Translations under genes and position numbers: made by a program
DNA from: an uncultured Spirochaetaceae bacterium
Lineage (GTDB): Bacteria > Spirochaetota > Spirochaetia > Sphaerochaetales > Sphaerochaetaceae
Direction of reading: 5' to 3'
Assembly (NCBI GenBank): GCA_944389975.1
Contig: CALXOH010000003.1
Span: 1 to 37,980, forward strand
Length of the DNA stretch: 37,980 nt
Part shown: positions 7,894-18,911 of the stretch, one piece after another
How the letters are laid out: each line of letters opens with the position of its first letter
How positions within the stretch are numbered: the stretch's first letter is position 1
The notes under the pieces: generated by a model
Told to the model about the DNA's origin: nothing
The model's input: the letters and a program-made list of their open reading frames with translations, nothing else
Databases searched by the model: none

Positions 7894-7944
7894 GTGTCAA
7901 AAGCTTCTTCTTTCAATTATAATCCTCCGTTGAAGAGTTATGAA
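7894..7944. promoter_or_regulatory. putative bidirectional promoter between tmk and tamB
   Basis: The 61-bp divergent gap holds a symmetric AT element. TATAAT reads on the + strand at 7918-7923 and again on the - strand at 7921-7916. On the + strand a weak -35 GTGTCA lies at 7894-7899 (18-nt spacing). On the - strand a weak -35 TTCATA lies at 7944-7939 (17-nt spacing). Predicted starts would be near 7930 (+, leader ~10 nt) and 7909 (-). Shared, symmetric -10 elements are known to fire both ways in bacteria. Assigned by eye. Confidence 0.5.
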
Positions 7945-10900
7945 ATACCATACCCCGAAGATGATCATGATCATTTCTCTTTCGATCCTCCTCCTCTTTC
8001 TCGTGGCGGCATCCTTTCTTTTGATCTCATTCGGCCCGTACAGTCCGACGATGAAGGCCGCAGAAAGTGCGATAAGCGTGCTGAAAGAGGGGGTCGGCGG
8101 GTATCGTATATCGTTCTCGTTCCAAGAAAGAACGATACTCTCCAAGATGATATTGCACGATTTTTCACTTTACAGGGACGGCGATCCCTCTCCCTTGCTC
8201 GATGTAGAGAGGGTGACGCTGGATGAGTCGACGAAGGATCTTGTACTTTCATTCTTGAAAGGGGAGGGGAAACTTGGCATAGAGTTTGGAAAGAGCGACG
8301 TGTACATCCCCGATGGCATGCTCGACAGTTTTTTCGACGCTTTGGAGAACTTTGGCTCGGAGAACGGAGGAGGAAGCTTTTCCCTTCCTCAGATGGCGAA
8401 TAGCGGAGAAGGGGGCGCGAAGCTTCATCTTTCAGCCTATTCAACGGACGTGACTTTCCATTACCAGGGAAAGTGCATTGCAAACGACTCTTCGTTCCGC
8501 TTTTCCTACGACGGCTTTTCCGGTGGGACTGACTTCTCCCTTTCGATAGGGGATGTCGCGTACGAACGCTCCGAGGGGGAGGGGATCGAAGCGACGGATA
8601 TAAACGCCAGCTACACGTCAGGAGACCTGGTGCTGTCAATTCCATCGTTCTCGCTCTTATACGGAGGAAACGACATCGAGATAAGCGGACTGGAGCTATT
8701 GCTTTCGGATGATCTTTCGTTATCAGTGTCATCAGTTTCGCTTTCGCGCGGGGATGACGTGTACATCTACCTGTCATCCGTTGAAGTAGTGGGCGATGAC
8801 GATGGAATCACTTTCCAAGCAGAGAGGGTAAGCGGAGGCTATCTTGGCTATGTCATCGTACTTGATTCTTTGGATGGAAGTTACTCATCGAAATCAAAGG
8901 TGCTCGATGCATCGTTCTTGGAAGGTGCGTTCTACAACCAGGCTGATGAAGTCTTTGCAATCGCACCGAGTTCGATCCTTTTTGACATCGGATCAAAGGA
9001 TCTTGATTTCCATACGAAAGGCGTGAACATAATCCTTGATGGAATGATCGCCGAAGGGAGGATAAAAGGTGCGCTGTTATCTCCTTTGTCGATCCACGTT
9101 GAAAACGGGACGGACGTAGAAGCGCATGCAAGCGTTTCAGCGGATTCTTCCCTTCCTTCGATCGCATCGTTCTCAACGGATCTATCCCTATATGCAAAGC
9201 TTGACGGGAACACCCTTTCCATGTTGGATGTGCAGAACGACGGGATAAAGTACATGGGAATGGATCTCGAGGTGGATTTTTCGCTCTCGTACGAAGAAGA
9301 CGGCGCATTTGAGGTGGGCTTGGTCAACGGAGGGGATGTCATAGCCTCCTTCCTGATGGAAAACGGCGTGTTTTCATTCTCATTCATCCCTGACTCTTTG
9401 GATTTCTCCCTGTTACGGGAGCCTGTTGTCGCGCTTTTTCCGTTCTTCGAGAACTACATCGGCGTCGATACCAAGGCGTATGGAAGAGTTGACGGGAAAG
9501 GAAATCTCGGCAATGACGGCATTGCTTTCCAGACAGCGGGGGATATCGGAATCGAGAGGCTGCACTTCAATGCGTTCTCTTTCGACACTACGCTCTCATT
9601 TTCCCTTTTGAAGGAGAAAAACATTCTCACTCTTCCTTCTTTGAGGATGACTTTGCCTTTTGCAACACTCGATGCATCGGGGGATATGGACCTCGGGAAC
9701 TTCCTGCCGTCATTTGATTTGAACATATCGGATGGAAATGACGTTGTCCTTCTTTCCCTGGTCATGGAGAGGCTTGGAGGAAGCGAAGTTTCCTTCTCTC
9801 TCACCCTCCCCGTGATAGGTAGCGGCGGGCTATCCGGGAACCTTGCGCTCGGCGAAGACGATACGCTCCGCTCCGACGCAGACCTGACGCTTCTTGGAAA
9901 GTCATACGACTTTTCAGTCCTGGTTGACTTTGCAGAGAGCGTTGTTGCAGTTGAGAACGAGAAAGCGTTTTTGGGGATATCGTGGAGGGATGAACTAGTG
10001 ATGGATCTTGATTTTCTCTCATTTGAACTTCCTTCGCGCTACTACCAATCGGGAGGGTTGTTGGATGGCAGCGTGCATTTTGATTTCGACTTCCGCGGGC
10101 AGACGTACACCCTCTCATCGACATCTTTCACGCTCAGGGATCTCACTCTGCTTCCATCCTATCCTGACTTCTCTTTCGACTTATTCTTCGACGAGAGTGG
10201 TTTCTCAGTTGAAAACATACTTGTCACCTCGGACGATTACGATCCCCTTTCCGGACGCTTCAGATACGAGGACGGCCAGTTCGCGCTTGCGCTCACCTCA
10301 TCTGGCGAGGAGATTCTTTTCTCACTCGCACCAGACGTTGCAGGCTACTCGGGGCTTCTTGCATTAAGTTCCCTTGACCTCGGACGATTCAACTCCCCGG
10401 GAAAGGTGCTTGATCTCTCTCTCGTCGGAAGCGGGGCGAGCTTGGAAGATCTTTCATTCAGTGGGGAAGTACGCATGGAGAGCACTGACGAAGTGAACGC
10501 TCCGTTCTTCCTGAACGCTGAAATATACATCGACAAGGATGAGCTGGACCTTGAAAGGATCGTTTATCAGGGAAAGGAGGACATGATAGAGGTGCCATCA
10601 TTCCTTTTCTCGCTGGAAAAAGGAACCTTCGACTTGCCGTTCTCCTACGAGAGGGTGTTGGAGAACGTCGACAGGAACCATACGTTCAGTGCAAAGGGAA
10701 GGATCTCGGGAGAGTTCGGGAAACGCTCTGATTTCCTTGCTTTCTACAATACGTTCAAGGATGGTGGGTTTGACCAGGCATCGGGCAAGGTTTACATCGA
10801 GTCGATGATGCTTGATGAGATGGCGATCGCACTCGACGGGGAGAGCGATATCAACTATGAAAACTCATCGTTCTCTTTCTCAGGTTCACTTGTCTCCGGA

Positions 10901-12520
10901 AACCTTGATTTCTCAGACCAGGTGATAAACCTCGACATGGCCTTTGACTTCAACCCCCTTGGAAGGGTTTCCGTCAAAGGTAATCTTTCTGATGAGACTG
11001 AGCTTGAGATCTCCCTTGACGATATAATGTTATACATCGTAAATCCTTTCTTCAAAGGGCCCATAGTGGTCATCGACGAAGAGACTCTTGTCTCAGGAAA
11101 CCTCCTTGTCTCCGGCAGTCCCGGGGATTTCCACATGTACGGCTACCTCTCCTCGGAGCGCTTGGGAATGGATGTATTCTGGCTTCCTGGGGAGCACTTG
11201 GTCGCGAACAACGCCTACATGAGCGTTTGGGACAACTACGTCAGGTCCGACTTGACGGAAGTCACGGTGATCGAGAACGGGGGAGAAAGGATCAAGCGCG
11301 GAAAAGTCATAGTCTCATTCTCCTTGGAACCATCGCTGATGATGGAGTACTACGAGGTTGATGCGTTCGTTGAGAAAGGGAACGAACTGGAGTTCCGTTT
11401 TCCTTTGAGGAGCATGAACATAGACATACTCGGAGCGATCTCCGGTCACTTCAGCCTTCATCAGGATGCCCATAAGAACGTTGACTTGAAAGGGGAGCTG
11501 GATGCAACGAGGTTCGAGCTCTCATACGGATTGCACGAACTGCCGCCATGGTACAGGCCTACTGCGCACGTAGAGTTCGATTTCGACATGAACCTAGTCG
11601 GAAACTCATCGTTTGTCTTCCCGCTCGGGCCGAACCCGATATTGAGCGCTACGTTCGAAGAGGGGCAGCGCGTGCGCTTCCAAAGCGACGACGAAGGCTT
11701 CAGGGCATCAGGGCAGCTCGATTTCCGCACAGGAGAGATCTATTACTTCCAGCGCTCTTTCTTCATCCGTGAAGGGGGGATTCTATTCAGGGACACAGGG
11801 TACGGGATGATGCCGGTTGTGAACCTTCGCGCAGAGCTCCGCGATTACGACTCAAGAGGTGACAGGGTGAGCATATTCCTCGTATTGAGGGAGGCAACCC
11901 TCGATGATTTCACACCTACGTTCGAGTCATCGCCGCAGCTTCCTTTGAACGAGATAATGCAGATACTTGGAAACGCGATAGTCTCCAACGAGAGGGGCTC
12001 TTCCGATCTCTCTTCGGTTGTTTCATTGGTAAGCACCGGGGTGGATGTGCTCTCACGCTTCGGCTACATCCCTGCAGGGGACGTTGGAATAAGGGAGTCT
12101 ATAAGGAAGACGTTCAACCTTGATACGGTGAACATCCATACGAATATAATCGGAAACGTCGTCTACGAGGCATTCAGAGGGAACGAGGGAAGGCAGGTGA
12201 GCCCCCTTGCAAGGTACCTCGACGGCACGACGCTATACCTCGGAAAGTACATCTCCGAGAACCTGTACGTCGAAGCGCTTTTCCACCTTGCTGCAGACAG
12301 CGGCAGGATAAGAAGGGAGAACAACGTCGACAGGTGGGGTAGGACAAGAAGGAACGGAACAAGTTTCATCTCGAACGACCTCGATCTCGAGACAGAGATA
12401 TCCGTGGAGTGGACAAACCCGATGTGCACGGTGAAAGTTTTCACCGCGCCCGGTAATTTCAACATCTATGAAGTAGTCGATTCACTTGGATTCAGCATAA
12501 CCAAGCAGTTTGTTTTCTGA
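7940..12520 (+). CDS. tamB: TamB-like translocation/assembly module protein (1526 aa)
   Basis: A very long protein with one N-terminal membrane anchor (residues ~7-30) and an otherwise periplasmic, beta-strand-rich body full of Ser, Asp, Leu and Phe. This is the profile of AsmA/TamB bridge proteins that form a hydrophobic groove from inner to outer membrane. The C-terminal ~370 residues carry the TamB (DUF490) signature: GQLDFRTGEIYYFQRSF followed by REGGILFRD near 1257-1290, the LRAELRDYD block, and LPLNEIMQILG. Members move phospholipid or help insert outer-membrane proteins. bamA follows 33 bp later and no tamA is present. The Borrelia TamB homologue is likewise encoded next to BamA and binds it. 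Start ATG 7940 has a weak GAAGAG site; ATG 7961 is an alternative. Confidence 0.9.
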   Translation: MKYHTPKMIMIISLSILLLFLVAASFLLISFGPYSPTMKAAESAISVLKEGVGGYRISFSFQERTILSKMILHDFSLYRDGDPSPLLDVERVTLDESTKDLVLSFLKGEGKLGIEFGKSDVYIPDGMLDSFFDALENFGSENGGGSFSLPQMANSGEGGAKLHLSAYSTDVTFHYQGKCIANDSSFRFSYDGFSGGTDFSLSIGDVAYERSEGEGIEATDINASYTSGDLVLSIPSFSLLYGGNDIEISGLELLLSDDLSLSVSSVSLSRGDDVYIYLSSVEVVGDDDGITFQAERVSGGYLGYVIVLDSLDGSYSSKSKVLDASFLEGAFYNQADEVFAIAPSSILFDIGSKDLDFHTKGVNIILDGMIAEGRIKGALLSPLSIHVENGTDVEAHASVSADSSLPSIASFSTDLSLYAKLDGNTLSMLDVQNDGIKYMGMDLEVDFSLSYEEDGAFEVGLVNGGDVIASFLMENGVFSFSFIPDSLDFSLLREPVVALFPFFENYIGVDTKAYGRVDGKGNLGNDGIAFQTAGDIGIERLHFNAFSFDTTLSFSLLKEKNILTLPSLRMTLPFATLDASGDMDLGNFLPSFDLNISDGNDVVLLSLVMERLGGSEVSFSLTLPVIGSGGLSGNLALGEDDTLRSDADLTLLGKSYDFSVLVDFAESVVAVENEKAFLGISWRDELVMDLDFLSFELPSRYYQSGGLLDGSVHFDFDFRGQTYTLSSTSFTLRDLTLLPSYPDFSFDLFFDESGFSVENILVTSDDYDPLSGRFRYEDGQFALALTSSGEEILFSLAPDVAGYSGLLALSSLDLGRFNSPGKVLDLSLVGSGASLEDLSFSGEVRMESTDEVNAPFFLNAEIYIDKDELDLERIVYQGKEDMIEVPSFLFSLEKGTFDLPFSYERVLENVDRNHTFSAKGRISGEFGKRSDFLAFYNTFKDGGFDQASGKVYIESMMLDEMAIALDGESDINYENSSFSFSGSLVSGNLDFSDQVINLDMAFDFNPLGRVSVKGNLSDETELEISLDDIMLYIVNPFFKGPIVVIDEETLVSGNLLVSGSPGDFHMYGYLSSERLGMDVFWLPGEHLVANNAYMSVWDNYVRSDLTEVTVIENGGERIKRGKVIVSFSLEPSLMMEYYEVDAFVEKGNELEFRFPLRSMNIDILGAISGHFSLHQDAHKNVDLKGELDATRFELSYGLHELPPWYRPTAHVEFDFDMNLVGNSSFVFPLGPNPILSATFEEGQRVRFQSDDEGFRASGQLDFRTGEIYYFQRSFFIREGGILFRDTGYGMMPVVNLRAELRDYDSRGDRVSIFLVLREATLDDFTPTFESSPQLPLNEIMQILGNAIVSNERGSSDLSSVVSLVSTGVDVLSRFGYIPAGDVGIRESIRKTFNLDTVNIHTNIIGNVVYEAFRGNEGRQVSPLARYLDGTTLYLGKYISENLYVEALFHLAADSGRIRRENNVDRWGRTRRNGTSFISNDLDLETEISVEWTNPMCTVKVFTAPGNFNIYEVVDSLGFSITKQFVF

Positions 12521-12553
12521 CCGAATTTTGATATAGTTGCCAAAGGAGTAAAG

Positions 12554-15500
12554 ATGAAGGTCAATAAATTCCTTTCGATACTGGTACTGATGATTCTTTT
12601 CGCACTCTCTACACTGGGTGCAAAAGAGAGCATAAAAGAGATAAGGATATCCGGGGAACTTGCAAAAGAGGAAGTGGATGCACTTTCGTCCATCTTCGAT
12701 CGCTATATCGGAGAGGATCTCTCGAACGATCTGATCGCAAGTGCGGAATCTGAAGTTTCAGGCGCCTTCGGATGGGTTGAAAGCCTTTCGATCCTCGATT
12801 CGACGAAGGATGAGGATGGATATTCCTTGGAAGTCGGGGTGGAAAAGTATCCTGAAAGCGAATTGATCTCATCTGTTTCCGTCTCCGGGGATATCGGGAG
12901 TTTCGAAGAGTCATACCTTGAAGAGTACCTTTCATCGTTCTACGGCAGGCACTACGACGAGAATACAAGCAGTGAAGCTCTTTCCGGGGTGAAGGAGATC
13001 TTTGGAAACGATGCGTCTTTAAGCATCGAGGGGGAGGATTGGACTGACGATGGCGTTGCCCTCTTCCTTTCTGCATGCATTCCTGATGCGAAGATATCAT
13101 CATTCTCTTTCACAGGTGACGAACTTGATGAAGGACAGATGCTTTCATTGGAAGAGGTGACCGGAAAGTACGTAGGATATGCTCTTGACGACGAGGATCT
13201 GGTTGACGCAGCTGATGAAATATCCTCAGCGCTTCCTTTCGTTTCCTCCATCTCCGTTGCCGGCGTTGCCCTTGAAGACGGGAATGCTGACGTGACGCTT
13301 TTTATTGAAAAAAGTGCTGAGGAAACAGCATCAGTCCGAAGTGGAAGTGAAAATACCAATATGGATGGAGGCACTGCTCCAGACACCCTCTGGTACGAGG
13401 GCCTTCCCATCGGGGGCTTTGATATCTCGGGAGTTTTGGATGACGGCATCTACCAGGAGGAGCTTTCGTCATTCCTTGGTTCCCCGTTTGACTCTGAAAC
13501 AGAAAGTGCAATCGCATCATACCTTGATTCCCTTGAGAGCGTCGACTTCTACGTCATGGGTGTAAGCGGAAGCGGGGATGCCTTGACCGTTTCCCTGGAA
13601 ATCTATGAGACTCCGAGGCTTGGAAGCATCGTCTTCTCCGGAAACGACAACATACCTTCGTCAGATCTTGCTGCAGCATCAGGCTACCAGGTCGGAGAGT
13701 ATCTCAAACTTCCAAGGCTTGATGAAGCAGAGGGGATGGTAAGATCGTTCTATGCACAGAACGGGTATCCTGATGCAGAGGTGAGTGCAGTCTCCACTTA
13801 CGATTCGAAAACAAACACCGAAGAGATAACATTCGAGATCAACGAAGGGGAGAGGGACGCATCATTTTCTTCCGGCGCCTCATCCGATCCTTCACGCCCG
13901 TGGTATGAGGGGATGGAGATGGCCGATTTCGAATACACGGGGCTTTTGAACGTCAAGCAAGCGCAGGTCGATCGCCTGATGCGATCTTTCAGGGGGGATG
14001 TACTTGACAACGAGACATTCCAGAGGATGTTCGACACTTTATACGCACAGCCTTGGCTTGAGTTTGTAACAGCAGATGCAATCAGAAGGGAGTCGGACGG
14101 AGCTTTGATCGTACGCTTCAATTTCGTCGAATACCCGATGGTCTCCGAGATCATAATCGAAGGGAACGATGCATTCAGCGACAGAACGCTTATAGGGGAG
14201 CAGAGCTATACAGTCGGCTCGTTTGTTGGTGCGAACAACATCCCGCAGGCCGCGCTTTCGATAAAATCCTACTATCTATCAAGAGGCTACAAGGATGCCG
14301 ATGTCACCGGATCAAGCACGTTTGATGAAGCGACGAACACGGAGAAAATCACATTCACTGTCACGGAGGGAAGGCAATACAAGGTACGCGACATCCTGTA
14401 CGAAGGTGTGAGCGCATTCTCATCGCGCGACCTGAACAAGATAATCACCAGCAAGAGGAAAGGGTTCTTCACCCCCGGAAACTTCGTCGAGGCAAACATC
14501 TCTCAGGACGTGAGCGCACTTGAGACACATTATCTCAACCAAGGCTTCATGGATGCCCGCGTCGTCTCTGTCGATACTCCCGACGTGACTACAGCGGAAG
14601 ACAAGACAGGGTTTGTGAACATCGTATTTACGATCGAAGAGGGTGAGAGGTGGTATTTCGGCCCGATCACGTTCAGCGGAAACGAGCGCTTTGACGATGA
14701 AGCGATCTCTTCCCTTATTGATATCGAAGAGGGGGAGGTGCACGACCAGAGCAAGCTTACATCGCTGTTCCAGGCGATAAGCGGGCTTTACTACGACAAC
14801 GGATACATAAACGCAAGCATAATCCCCCAGCCTGACTTCGACAGGGAAAGGAACTTGGTTTCCTATCACATTTCGATCGATGAAGGGGCGCAGTCAGTCA
14901 TCGAAAGCATAAGGATCAGGGGGCTTTCGAAGACTAAGCCGTATGTATTCGAGCGCGAGCTTACGATACACGAAGGGGATATATTCGACCGCTCGCAGGT
15001 GATAAGAAGCCAGCAGAACATATACAACACCGGGCTGATAAAGAACATCAGGCTCGAACTTCTCCCCGGAGAGACGGAAAACGGGGTGATCATAGATCTG
15101 GAAGTCGAGGAAGGAAACCAGATGGAACTCCAGTTCGGCGCCACATTCGGCGGCACTGTCGACGGCTTTCCGATCTCGGGATTCCTGCAGTGGTCCGACA
15201 AGAACCTCCTCGGAACAGGCAGGAACCTCGCGATATCCACGACGCTCTCCCCGGACACCCAGTCTGTCGCAATTTCGCTTAGCAACGGATGGGTAGGGGA
15301 CAAGAGGTGGTCCAACGGCATTTCGTTCTCGTTCTCGCATCAGCTGTTGGACGATGAACTCCAGAAGGCTGAGGGAAGTGCGTTCTATGACGGAAGGGAT
15401 GAAGGAAAGGAGACCTTCCCGCTCGGCTACAACAGCGCGGAGGAGTGGTACGGCTCGGACAGGATATACCCGGACAACTACTACCTGATGGATTACGACT

Positions 15501-16333
15501 ATTTCCGCTTCTCCATCGGATACGACACCGGCTATACATTCAACTTCCTTCCCGGAAACCTCACCCTGGGTGCAGGCATTTCGATCGGGTTGAACCGTGC
15601 ATATTACGATGAGTCGAGGTATACGCCTTACAACGACCTTGTAGTCAAATACCACGATGCATGGCAGTTCTCGAACAAGCTCTCGTTCCGCGTGGTCTGG
15701 GATGCAAGGGACTACGTGACGAATACTACGAAAGGTTACCTCCTTTCTGTGAACTACACATACGCCGGCGGCGTGCTCTTCGGCCTTTCGAATTACAACA
15801 GGCTCTCGGTGGGCGCGCAAGGTTTTGTTCCTTTGTTCTCGTACCTTGACGAGGATGAGAGGAACAGGAGCCTGGTGCTTTCCTTCACGACCAATGCGTC
15901 GTTCATGTTCGACCAGTACTGGAACCGCGACGGGCACTGGGGAAGGTATTCGGCGCGTCAGGGCGCAACAGAGTACGAGATGCTGTACATCGACGGAATG
16001 AATATCGGACGTGGTTTTGACACCATCACCGACCTTTCGTTCTTATGGCACAACCAGATCGATCTCTCGTTCCCCGTGGTACTCGATCTGTTGAACGTCG
16101 AGGCGTTCGTATCGATGACTGGCGCGACAAGTACGCTCGAAGACCTTTCGTCCTTCTACAACATACGCTGGTACATGGCGATGGGTGCCGGGTTCAAACT
16201 TACGATTCCGGGTTTCCCGCTCGGGCTTTACCTTGTGAAGAACGCAACGATACTCGACGGATCCTTCCAGTGGGAGGATGGATACATCTTCGGCATGAAG
16301 CTCGTGCTTGCGATATCCACTTCACTGATGTGA
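12554..16333 (+). CDS. bamA: outer-membrane assembly protein BamA with about ten POTRA-like domains
   Basis: Omp85-family insertase that folds beta-barrel proteins into the outer membrane. Start ATG 12554 follows AAAGGAG (12542-12548), and residues 1-23 are a signal peptide. At 1259 aa it is far longer than the usual ~800. By eye I count ten POTRA-like units at roughly residues 26-98, 103-176, 178-253, 286-352, 355-434, 456-527, 529-607, 609-697, 699-778 and 780-853. Each has a strand ending in a Gly-containing turn, helices, and a closing strand. The last five match the canonical P1-P5. A WYEG linker motif occurs twice, at 280-283 and 450-453, marking a repeated block. The barrel starts near 856, with the lid-loop motif GRGF (MNIGRGFDT). 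The C-terminus ends STSLM, with no final aromatic residue. mutS begins 7 bp later. Confidence 0.94.
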   Translation: MKVNKFLSILVLMILFALSTLGAKESIKEIRISGELAKEEVDALSSIFDRYIGEDLSNDLIASAESEVSGAFGWVESLSILDSTKDEDGYSLEVGVEKYPESELISSVSVSGDIGSFEESYLEEYLSSFYGRHYDENTSSEALSGVKEIFGNDASLSIEGEDWTDDGVALFLSACIPDAKISSFSFTGDELDEGQMLSLEEVTGKYVGYALDDEDLVDAADEISSALPFVSSISVAGVALEDGNADVTLFIEKSAEETASVRSGSENTNMDGGTAPDTLWYEGLPIGGFDISGVLDDGIYQEELSSFLGSPFDSETESAIASYLDSLESVDFYVMGVSGSGDALTVSLEIYETPRLGSIVFSGNDNIPSSDLAAASGYQVGEYLKLPRLDEAEGMVRSFYAQNGYPDAEVSAVSTYDSKTNTEEITFEINEGERDASFSSGASSDPSRPWYEGMEMADFEYTGLLNVKQAQVDRLMRSFRGDVLDNETFQRMFDTLYAQPWLEFVTADAIRRESDGALIVRFNFVEYPMVSEIIIEGNDAFSDRTLIGEQSYTVGSFVGANNIPQAALSIKSYYLSRGYKDADVTGSSTFDEATNTEKITFTVTEGRQYKVRDILYEGVSAFSSRDLNKIITSKRKGFFTPGNFVEANISQDVSALETHYLNQGFMDARVVSVDTPDVTTAEDKTGFVNIVFTIEEGERWYFGPITFSGNERFDDEAISSLIDIEEGEVHDQSKLTSLFQAISGLYYDNGYINASIIPQPDFDRERNLVSYHISIDEGAQSVIESIRIRGLSKTKPYVFERELTIHEGDIFDRSQVIRSQQNIYNTGLIKNIRLELLPGETENGVIIDLEVEEGNQMELQFGATFGGTVDGFPISGFLQWSDKNLLGTGRNLAISTTLSPDTQSVAISLSNGWVGDKRWSNGISFSFSHQLLDDELQKAEGSAFYDGRDEGKETFPLGYNSAEEWYGSDRIYPDNYYLMDYDYFRFSIGYDTGYTFNFLPGNLTLGAGISIGLNRAYYDESRYTPYNDLVVKYHDAWQFSNKLSFRVVWDARDYVTNTTKGYLLSVNYTYAGGVLFGLSNYNRLSVGAQGFVPLFSYLDEDERNRSLVLSFTTNASFMFDQYWNRDGHWGRYSARQGATEYEMLYIDGMNIGRGFDTITDLSFLWHNQIDLSFPVVLDLLNVEAFVSMTGATSTLEDLSSFYNIRWYMAMGAGFKLTIPGFPLGLYLVKNATILDGSFQWEDGYIFGMKLVLAISTSLM

Positions 16334-16340
16334 GAAAGCC

Positions 16341-18911
16341 ATGGAAAGGGAAGAAAACGAACTGACTCCGATGATGAGGCAATATGCCCAGATCAAGAAA
16401 GAGCACCAGGACAAGGTGCTCTTCTTCCGCCTGGGTGACTTCTACGAGATGTTCTCATCCGATGCCCGGGAAGTCTCGAGACTTCTGAACCTCACCCTTA
16501 CCCACAGGGGTTCCGAGTTGATGTGCGGCATACCCTACCACGCTGCAAAAGGGTACATCAAAAGGCTCTTGGAAGCGGGAAAGAAGGTTGCGATATGCGA
16601 ACAGACCGAGATGTCTGGGGACTCAAGGAAGCTATGCGAGAGAAAGGTCGTCGCGATATACACCCCTGCGACGGTAGTCGAGGATGATTTCCTCTCATCC
16701 CTCGATTCTTCGTACATACTCTCTGTCTTCCAGGATAAGAGCGGGCTTTACATCGCCTATTCTGATATCACGAGCGGGGACTTCAAACTCTCGGTACTAC
16801 CTTTGGATAAGAACTACAAGCTTCTTGACGACAAACTGATGATGATCATGCCCAAGGAGATACTCATCGAGGATGACCTGTATTACTCATCGAAGGCTCT
16901 GAAGATGCTTCTCGACTCAACGGAAGCCATGGTCACTCCGCTTCCTTCCTTCTACTTCGAGAAGCGAAGCGCGTACAAGGAACTCGAGGCGCAGTTCTCA
17001 TCCCACATACTCTCATCGCGCTCAATCGAGGAGGCCTCCCCCCAGTCCAGGGTTGCTGGTGCGCTTCTACGCTACATGAGGGAGATGAGGAAGGAGAGCC
17101 TTCCGCAGCTTGACATAATAGAGTGGGAGAACGGGGATGAGCACCTCTTCCTCTCAAGTGCGAGCATAAAGAGCTTGGAACTGGTGAAGAACCAAAGCGA
17201 CGGGGGAAGCCAGATGACCCTCTTTTCCGCGGTGAACAGGACCAGGACCAGTTCCGGTGCAAGGCTGTTGAAAAGAGAGATACTCAACCCTCTTGCAAAC
17301 GTCGGTGAGATACTGGCCCGGGAGGATTGGGTCGAACGCTTTTATGAAAATAACGAAGAGCGTGAAAGCGTACGGAAAGCGCTCTCCGGGATATCCGATG
17401 TGGAGAGGATAGCAACGAGGATGGAGATGGAGAAGACCCAGCCAAGGGACCTTGTCGCGTTCTCGGACTCCCTTTCATCTCTGATGTCGATCCTCGATGG
17501 AAAAGAGGATCTTTTGAAGCTTTCCGACGACGAAGTCGACTTCGAGAGCCTGGTGGAGTTCTCGATCGAGATTGAAAAGGGGATCAACAGGGAGTGCACG
17601 AACATCCAGAGCGAGGGAACGATCATACTCAAAGGGTACGACGAAGAGTATGACAAGATACTTTCGTTCGCCAACGACAACAGCTTCATGCTCACATCCT
17701 ATATGGAGAAACTCAAGGAAGAATACGGGATAACGAGCATGAAGCTCTCGGAGAACAGGATAATAGGGCATTTTCTTGAAGTCTCAAAGCGTGAAAGCGA
17801 TAAAATCCCGCCGTTTTTCATCAGAAGGCAGACTTTGGTCTCTTCAGAGCGCTACACAACTGAAGAGCTTTCGAATATGGAAAATGAGATCGTAAGGGCC
17901 AAGGAGAGTGCGTTTTCATACGAGAAAAAGCTTTACAAGAACTTCGTAGGGAAAGCCAAGGATCTCTCTCTGGAGATAAGGAAGATGGGCGGGATGATTT
18001 CGCGACTTGACTTCTTCTCATCCCTTGCCGAGCTTTCACGACAGATGTCGTACGTACGGCCCGTGCTATCCGAGGACGGGAGCGTGGAGATAAGAAACGG
18101 AAGGCATCCCGTGGTCGAGAGCTACATGAACAGAAGCGATTACGTTCCGAACTCCTTCTCGACGGAAAAGGGGCGGTTTTCCCTTGTAACAGGCCCGAAC
18201 ATGGCGGGTAAGAGCACCTATTTGAGGGAAGTTGCGCTCATCGCGATACTCTTCCAGATCGGGTCGTTCGTCCCTGCCGAGAGTGCAAGACTTCCTGTGT
18301 TTGACAAGCTTTTCTCCAGAGTCGGCGCATCTGACAACCTTGCGCGCGGAGAGTCGACGTTCCTTGTGGAGATGTCTGAAAGCGCCGAGATATTGCGCTC
18401 CGCCACATCACGCTCGTTGATAATCATGGATGAGATAGGAAGGGGTACGAGTACGGAGGACGGGATGGCGATTGCGTATGCGATAATGCAATACCTGAAG
18501 AAGCTCGGGGCTGTCACTTTGTTCTCAACCCATTACAGGGAGCTGTCGGGACTCGATCCGGATGGAGTTTCATTGTTGACTATGGAGGTCGAGGAGGAAA
18601 AGAGCGGGATAAGGTTCCTCAGAAAGGCTGTCGAGGGGGTTGCCAAAAGCTCGTACGGAATACACGTTGCAAAGATCGCAGGGCTTCCCAGATCCGTGAT
18701 AAAGGATGCAAAGGACTTCCAGAAAAGGCACTTCGATCTCTTCGAGAGTATCTCTTCAGGGCAGCAAAGCCTCTTCCAGGGGGATGATGAGGAGTCCGTA
18801 TACGAGGAAGCGGGGAAGGAGATCGCTTCTTTCGACATCGACAACTCGACTCCGATGGAAGCGTTCCTCTTCATCAGGGAGCTGAAGAAAATGCTTGAAG
18901 GAAAACAATGA
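16341..18911 (+). CDS. mutS: DNA mismatch repair protein MutS
   Basis: MutS recognises base mismatches and starts repair with MutL. The 856-aa protein has the N-terminal mismatch-binding motif GDFYEMF with Phe34 and Glu36, the connector and lever/clamp domains, and a C-terminal ATPase with Walker A GPNMAGKS at 618-625, Walker B LIIMDEIGRGTS, and the STHYREL switch. Length is normal. It begins 7 bp after bamA, with GAGAAAG as a modest ribosome binding site, so it probably shares the bamA transcript. It is followed by a promoter-like sequence for the next operon. Confidence 0.97.
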   Translation: MEREENELTPMMRQYAQIKKEHQDKVLFFRLGDFYEMFSSDAREVSRLLNLTLTHRGSELMCGIPYHAAKGYIKRLLEAGKKVAICEQTEMSGDSRKLCERKVVAIYTPATVVEDDFLSSLDSSYILSVFQDKSGLYIAYSDITSGDFKLSVLPLDKNYKLLDDKLMMIMPKEILIEDDLYYSSKALKMLLDSTEAMVTPLPSFYFEKRSAYKELEAQFSSHILSSRSIEEASPQSRVAGALLRYMREMRKESLPQLDIIEWENGDEHLFLSSASIKSLELVKNQSDGGSQMTLFSAVNRTRTSSGARLLKREILNPLANVGEILAREDWVERFYENNEERESVRKALSGISDVERIATRMEMEKTQPRDLVAFSDSLSSLMSILDGKEDLLKLSDDEVDFESLVEFSIEIEKGINRECTNIQSEGTIILKGYDEEYDKILSFANDNSFMLTSYMEKLKEEYGITSMKLSENRIIGHFLEVSKRESDKIPPFFIRRQTLVSSERYTTEELSNMENEIVRAKESAFSYEKKLYKNFVGKAKDLSLEIRKMGGMISRLDFFSSLAELSRQMSYVRPVLSEDGSVEIRNGRHPVVESYMNRSDYVPNSFSTEKGRFSLVTGPNMAGKSTYLREVALIAILFQIGSFVPAESARLPVFDKLFSRVGASDNLARGESTFLVEMSESAEILRSATSRSLIIMDEIGRGTSTEDGMAIAYAIMQYLKKLGAVTLFSTHYRELSGLDPDGVSLLTMEVEEEKSGIRFLRKAVEGVAKSSYGIHVAKIAGLPRSVIKDAKDFQKRHFDLFESISSGQQSLFQGDDEESVYEEAGKEIASFDIDNSTPMEAFLFIRELKKMLEGKQ

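Follow-up and report, generated by a model that had tools for sequence, protein, structure and literature searches.

BamA inserts proteins into the outer membrane and normally carries five POTRA domains, on which docking in the periplasm takes place. The locus described here raises the question of how the BamA of an uncultured member of the Spirochaetaceae came to carry about twice that number, and what the additional domains might do. The gene lies in a stretch of 37,980 nucleotides (assembly GCA_944389975.1, contig CALXOH010000003.1, positions 1 to 37,980), hereafter the window, for which an earlier note had proposed about ten POTRA-like domains produced by internal duplication and a doubled arm reaching much further into the periplasm. 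BamA proteins with more than five POTRAs are already known, up to seven (PMC8292188, PMC6604945, PMC4494059), seven being the largest number given in reviews (PMC8292188, PMC6604945), and spirochaete BamA has been described with its characteristic five (PMC4494059). A text search of the open-licence literature found no paper on eight, nine or ten POTRAs, the maximum of seven being taken from the reviews. The features of the locus, all on the forward strand, are the following.

7940 to 12520, forward: TamB-like gene of 1526 aa, an open reading frame directly upstream of bamA, ending 33 bp before it
12540 to 12553, forward: Shine-Dalgarno-like sequence AAAGGAGTAAAG (AAAGGAG) before the bamA ATG, from the sequence
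12554 to 16333, forward: bamA, 1259 aa in a single uninterrupted frame
12554 to 12622, forward: signal peptide-like N-terminus, residues 1-23, read from the sequence by eye
12623 to 12859, forward: E1, extra POTRA, POTRA1-like, residues 24-102 (P1 HMM E 6e-4; hhalign to P1 86%)
12860 to 13090, forward: E2, extra POTRA-like unit, residues 103-179 (likeness to E1 and E3; stand-alone model)
13091 to 13321, forward: E3, extra POTRA, POTRA1-like, residues 180-256 (hhalign to P1 95%; bAABB fold)
13322 to 13390, forward: flexible linker 1, residues 257-279 (pLDDT below 50 at 256-278)
13391 to 13615, forward: E4, POTRA1 copy starting with WYEG, residues 280-354 (P1 HMM E 4e-6; hhalign 98%)
13616 to 13849, forward: E5, POTRA2 copy, residues 355-432 (P2 HMM E 7e-21 at 356-432; hhalign 99%)
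13850 to 13900, forward: flexible linker 2, residues 433-449 (pLDDT below 50 at 440-445)
13901 to 14137, forward: canonical POTRA1, residues 450-528 (P1 HMM E 2.5e-29; alignment to E. coli and Neisseria POTRA1)
14138 to 14371, forward: canonical POTRA2, residues 529-606 (HMM and structural alignment to known BamA)
14372 to 14641, forward: canonical POTRA3, residues 607-696 (HMM and structural alignment to known BamA)
14642 to 14884, forward: canonical POTRA4, residues 697-777 (HMM and structural alignment to known BamA)
14885 to 15139, forward: canonical POTRA5, residues 778-862 (P5 HMM E 1.6e-42 and structural alignment)
15140 to 16330, forward: Omp85 beta-barrel, residues 863-1259 (Pfam Omp85 2.2e-16; TIGR03303 409 bits)

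The protein is BamA by its signatures: the NCBIfam BamA model TIGR03303 scores 409 bits against a curated equivalog cut-off of 297, the TamA model reaches 34 bits where its cut-off is 625, and P1-P5 are followed by the Omp85 barrel. It is also the only full-length BamA of its genome, in which a search returned a single strong match. It shares P1-P5 and the barrel with canonical BamA (E. coli, Neisseria; TIGR03303), which lacks the five extra N-terminal POTRAs and the two linkers, and with nine confident POTRAs and a probable tenth it departs from the exactly five by which Spirochaetes BamA has been characterized (PMC4494059). The upstream tamB and bamA likely form one operon, and a tamB homologue, 1507-1651 aa long, adjoins bamA in each of the 20 genomes examined; the Pfam TamB family PF04357 matches six of ten homologues (best 6e-14) and gave no match for the window's own TamB-like protein. 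Directly after bamA, an 856-aa frame at 16341-18911 is, on reading by eye, presumably mutS. A bamA adjoined by tamB, with TamB thought to work with BamA, is also found in the BAM-TAM hybrid of Borrelia, whose BamA, unlike that of the window, has five POTRAs and is accompanied by BamB and BamD lipoproteins (PMC13382580).

Duplication within the arm is well marked. The motif WYEG recurs at a distance of exactly 170 residues, at 280 and at 450, as had been noticed, the similar closing segments are found at about 414 and 588, and residues 280-448 align to 450-618 with Z = 33.6, a score that none of 1000 shuffles attained. E1, E2 and E3 are mutually alike (Z 3.7-7 by shuffled pairwise scores; E2 is at 5.8 to E1 and 3.7 to E3). 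HMMs of P1-P5, built from five-POTRA relatives, assign 280-354 to P1, 356-432 to P2 and 450-862 to P1-P5. Profile comparison with hhalign links E1 and E3 to POTRA1 only; E2 by itself reaches no significance against P1, and E1 against E2 gives 72%. A BLASTP self-comparison of the N-terminus yielded the self-hit only, and shuffled pairwise scores and HMMs were required. The architecture is E1-E2-E3, a linker, E4 (P1') and E5 (P2'), a second linker, and then P1-P5 and the barrel. These results support the origin of the ten POTRAs through internal duplication; the doubled arm holds only in so far as units were duplicated, for what was added is one P1-P2 pair and three P1-like units, and the five-domain arm was not copied as a whole. 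GC3 along the gene is 0.43 in E3, 0.30 in linker 1 and up to 0.73 in the barrel. E1 to E4 are acidic, with a net charge of -13 to -15 each and no K or R at all in E4; this acidity may be a general trait of the genus, since its TamB and SurA-like protein are acidic too.

Structure prediction, which the earlier note had proposed for counting the domains, gave nine of them in place. AlphaFold2 on residues 1-870 with an alignment of 50 relatives (mean pLDDT 83.8, pTM 0.52) produced the beta-alpha-alpha-beta-beta elements with good pLDDT in E1, E3, E4, E5 and P1-P5, E1 having this fold at pLDDT mostly 75-90, so that nine POTRAs are well supported by the model. Most of residues 99-165, the E2 region, fell below pLDDT 50. 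Predicted alone with its paralogues as alignment, E2 adopted a POTRA fold (pLDDT 86) for which Foldseek ranked BamA POTRAs first (E 2e-3 and weaker; the two best at TM 0.71-0.77); as an alignment of paralogues favours a POTRA answer, E2 is graded a probable tenth POTRA. Residues 453-858 superpose on POTRA1-5 of the E. coli and Neisseria BamA (VIA Z 26.0, rmsd 10.0, 391 residues), which means that the usual arm is complete and that the extra units were added at the N-terminus. Given its low pTM and the linkers, the model does not fix how the modules lie relative to one another. Three modules are separated by flexible linkers, which makes a single long rigid arm unlikely.

In a draft genome of 51 contigs, an error of assembly or gene calling could have fused unrelated sequence to BamA. 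This explanation is largely refuted and hardly credible: the frame is unbroken, the extra units are homologous to BamA's own POTRAs, and a second species from a separate assembly (an uncultured Spirochaetales MAG, G016, CASFDA010000013.1) shows the same architecture minus E2, with nine POTRAs in 1213 aa and 69% identity over residues 173-1259. Moreover, the signal peptide-like segment stands ahead of E1, with a comparable one in the sister species, and reading by eye found no second such segment ahead of P1, so that export via a signal peptide is possible only for the long form.

The distribution of the long gene was surveyed in 139 genomes of the order, all from one family. Among them it is present only in the window species and the sister species, two of the 48 genomes of the genus. 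A BamA of about 1000 aa with seven POTRAs occurs in five other genera of the family, ten genomes in all (loci L051-L060, in G001, G003, G015, G017, G021, G031, G033, G036, G045 and G048). Like the window BamA it has a P1-P2 pair duplicated ahead of P1-P5, but its junction has no linker, its extra units form a separate clade and its position in the P3-barrel tree is separate. The remaining complete genes examined in the order have five POTRAs. Three genomes, G010, G043 and G013 (L062, L063, L065), have five POTRAs, with POTRA1 set apart from the signal peptide by a long low-complexity linker. The longer frames of G009 and G051 appear to be misread upstream starts, and in G038 (C1:95992-98483), a fairly complete genome, BamA is in three pieces, for which frameshifts of the assembly are a possible cause.

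In the P3-barrel tree, built on P3-P5 and the barrel, the window and sister species are nested among five-POTRA members of the genus, and well-supported branches force the expanded state to have changed at least twice. The P1-P2 unit tree places the extra pairs of the long species and of the seven-POTRA clade in separate clades; AU tests on it reject neither a shared origin for both expansions (p 0.31) nor a placement of E4E5 beside their own P1P2 (p 0.33), and the case for two origins accordingly lies in the P3-barrel tree. Two origins are the parsimonious reading of these sequences, not a proven one, and a single ancient gain followed by many later losses is the alternative.

Amplification of N-terminal, distal units is recurrent within Spirochaetota, the phylum to which the sequence survey extends, as judged from the seven-POTRA clade and from the family f30 (L129 in G296, L130 in G158), whose BamA of 1022-1030 aa contains the motif YEGK three times, read as three tandem POTRA1-type units followed by P2-P5. 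Among the matches listed (about 150) for 247 genomes sampled more widely from the phylum, the best BamA matches are otherwise 796-934 aa long. Further search in the phylum found some longer BamA genes of other make-up. In the family f41 (L141-L145; about 1050-1060 aa) additional sequence lies between the P4 and P5 matches. G429 has a frame (L139, 2380-6684, forward strand) with a WD40 beta-propeller ahead of a five-POTRA Omp85 protein, resembling the WD40-Omp85 subfamily described earlier (PMC4104836), and also a second match of ordinary BamA length. The apparent 2291-aa frame over BamA in G201 is no fusion; it proved to be open in a different frame from tamB, which it overlaps. Outside the phylum, more than five POTRAs are likewise found in the seven-POTRA BamA of Myxococcus and in duplicated BamA of Acidobacteria and Aquificae (PMC8292188, PMC4494059); seven compare with ten in the window, and the duplicated copies have a divergent third POTRA, whereas the window BamA is the sole copy and its additions are N-terminal.

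Our preferred reading, to which we give a probability of roughly one in two, is that of a sole canonical BamA whose N-terminus was extended by repeated copying of distal POTRAs, the extra domains being tethered modules for docking substrates or chaperones; it is favoured because, of the five additions, four are of POTRA1 type or resemble units that are. The main and a real rival, which we consider possible to a lesser degree, is that amplification was neutral or nearly so, distal copies being tolerated, arising, drifting and vanishing again with no added function. The extra units diverge rapidly between the two long species, as loosely constrained sequence would, which counts against docking: identity is 83% in the barrel, 89% in P5 and 63% in P1, and falls to 50% in E4, 35% in E5, 42% in E3 and 29% in E1. 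The two closest species also differ in copy number (nine against ten), GC3 drops towards the N-terminus (barrel 0.73, E3 0.43), and some bacteria can do without distal POTRAs (PMC8292188). However, E1, E3, E4 and E5 retain predicted POTRA folds despite this deep divergence, and the seven-POTRA state persists across ten genomes from five genera. Between the two long species dS is saturated in the extra units, so that selection there is not measurable; in two closely related members of the seven-POTRA clade dN/dS of the extra units is about 0.06-0.09, similar to P2, and the extra pair of that clade is under purifying selection, which neutral amplification would not predict.

The partners of BamA bear on two further explanations. 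A longer arm might reach further, either in the direction of the inner membrane or alongside TamB, and so fit a wider periplasm, as ten domains, the adjoining tamB and the binding of TamB DUF490 to POTRA2/3 of BamA in Borreliella (PMC11361582) could suggest. TamB is, however, of the same length in the 20 genomes with five, seven or nine POTRAs and in the window with ten, and shows no correlation with POTRA number among them, which argues against an arm adapted to TamB or to a wider periplasm; together with the linkers, predicted at low confidence (256-278 and 440-445), which split the predicted arm into modules, this weakens the earlier claim of a much further reach and makes the explanation unlikely. 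That the extra units provide docking sites, perhaps for TamB as the earlier note suggested, is possible. It is quite unlikely, too, that the extra POTRAs stand in for the surfaces of absent BAM lipoproteins (BamB, BamD) and Skp. Pfam searches, with positive controls that gave matches, found no BamD, BamB (PQQ_2), Skp or LptD in 16 genomes of the family, regardless of POTRA number; but five-POTRA relatives do equally without BamB, BamD and Skp matches, and divergent homologues may escape Pfam, the BamD of Borrelia being truncated (PMC13382580). A SurA-like parvulin (about 340-370 aa) occurs in all 16 genomes, and from their sequences the family apparently has a minimal system of BamA, TamB and a SurA-like protein. 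That protein is no more basic in the two long species than in five-POTRA relatives, which gives no sign of co-evolution. A short parvulin (about 95 aa) is matched in 12 genomes and not in G000, G016, G049 and G055, independently of POTRA number, and autotransporters, considered as demanding substrates, had no match over the cut-off in the 16 genomes.

If the extra domains are tethered docking modules, the core of P1-P5 and barrel would insert outer-membrane proteins as usual, and the extra units, as two small modules on flexible linkers, would offer additional beta-edges in the periplasm, several of POTRA1 type and one of POTRA2 type. In E. coli SurA docks on the edge strand of POTRA1 via backbone beta-augmentation (PMC11366764); comparable edges may bind a SurA-like chaperone or unfolded substrates themselves, so that more is captured locally before it passes to P1-P5, while TamB would act alongside BamA with its length not remodelled. 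More tentatively, up to four extra POTRA1-type domains on tethers might let one BamA engage several substrates or SurA-like chaperones simultaneously, as a multivalent capture antenna; the BAM machine concerned would be one in which Pfam searches recognise no BamB, BamD or Skp.

Whichever function applies, the locus shows that the arm is able to grow by copying at the distal end, from P1 and P2; the emphasis had previously been on duplication of the internal POTRAs P2-P4 (PMC4104836). With POTRA numbers of five, seven, nine and ten at a constant TamB length, the family represents a natural experiment on the role of the distal POTRAs, for which substrate capture, chaperone docking or nothing at all are the candidates.
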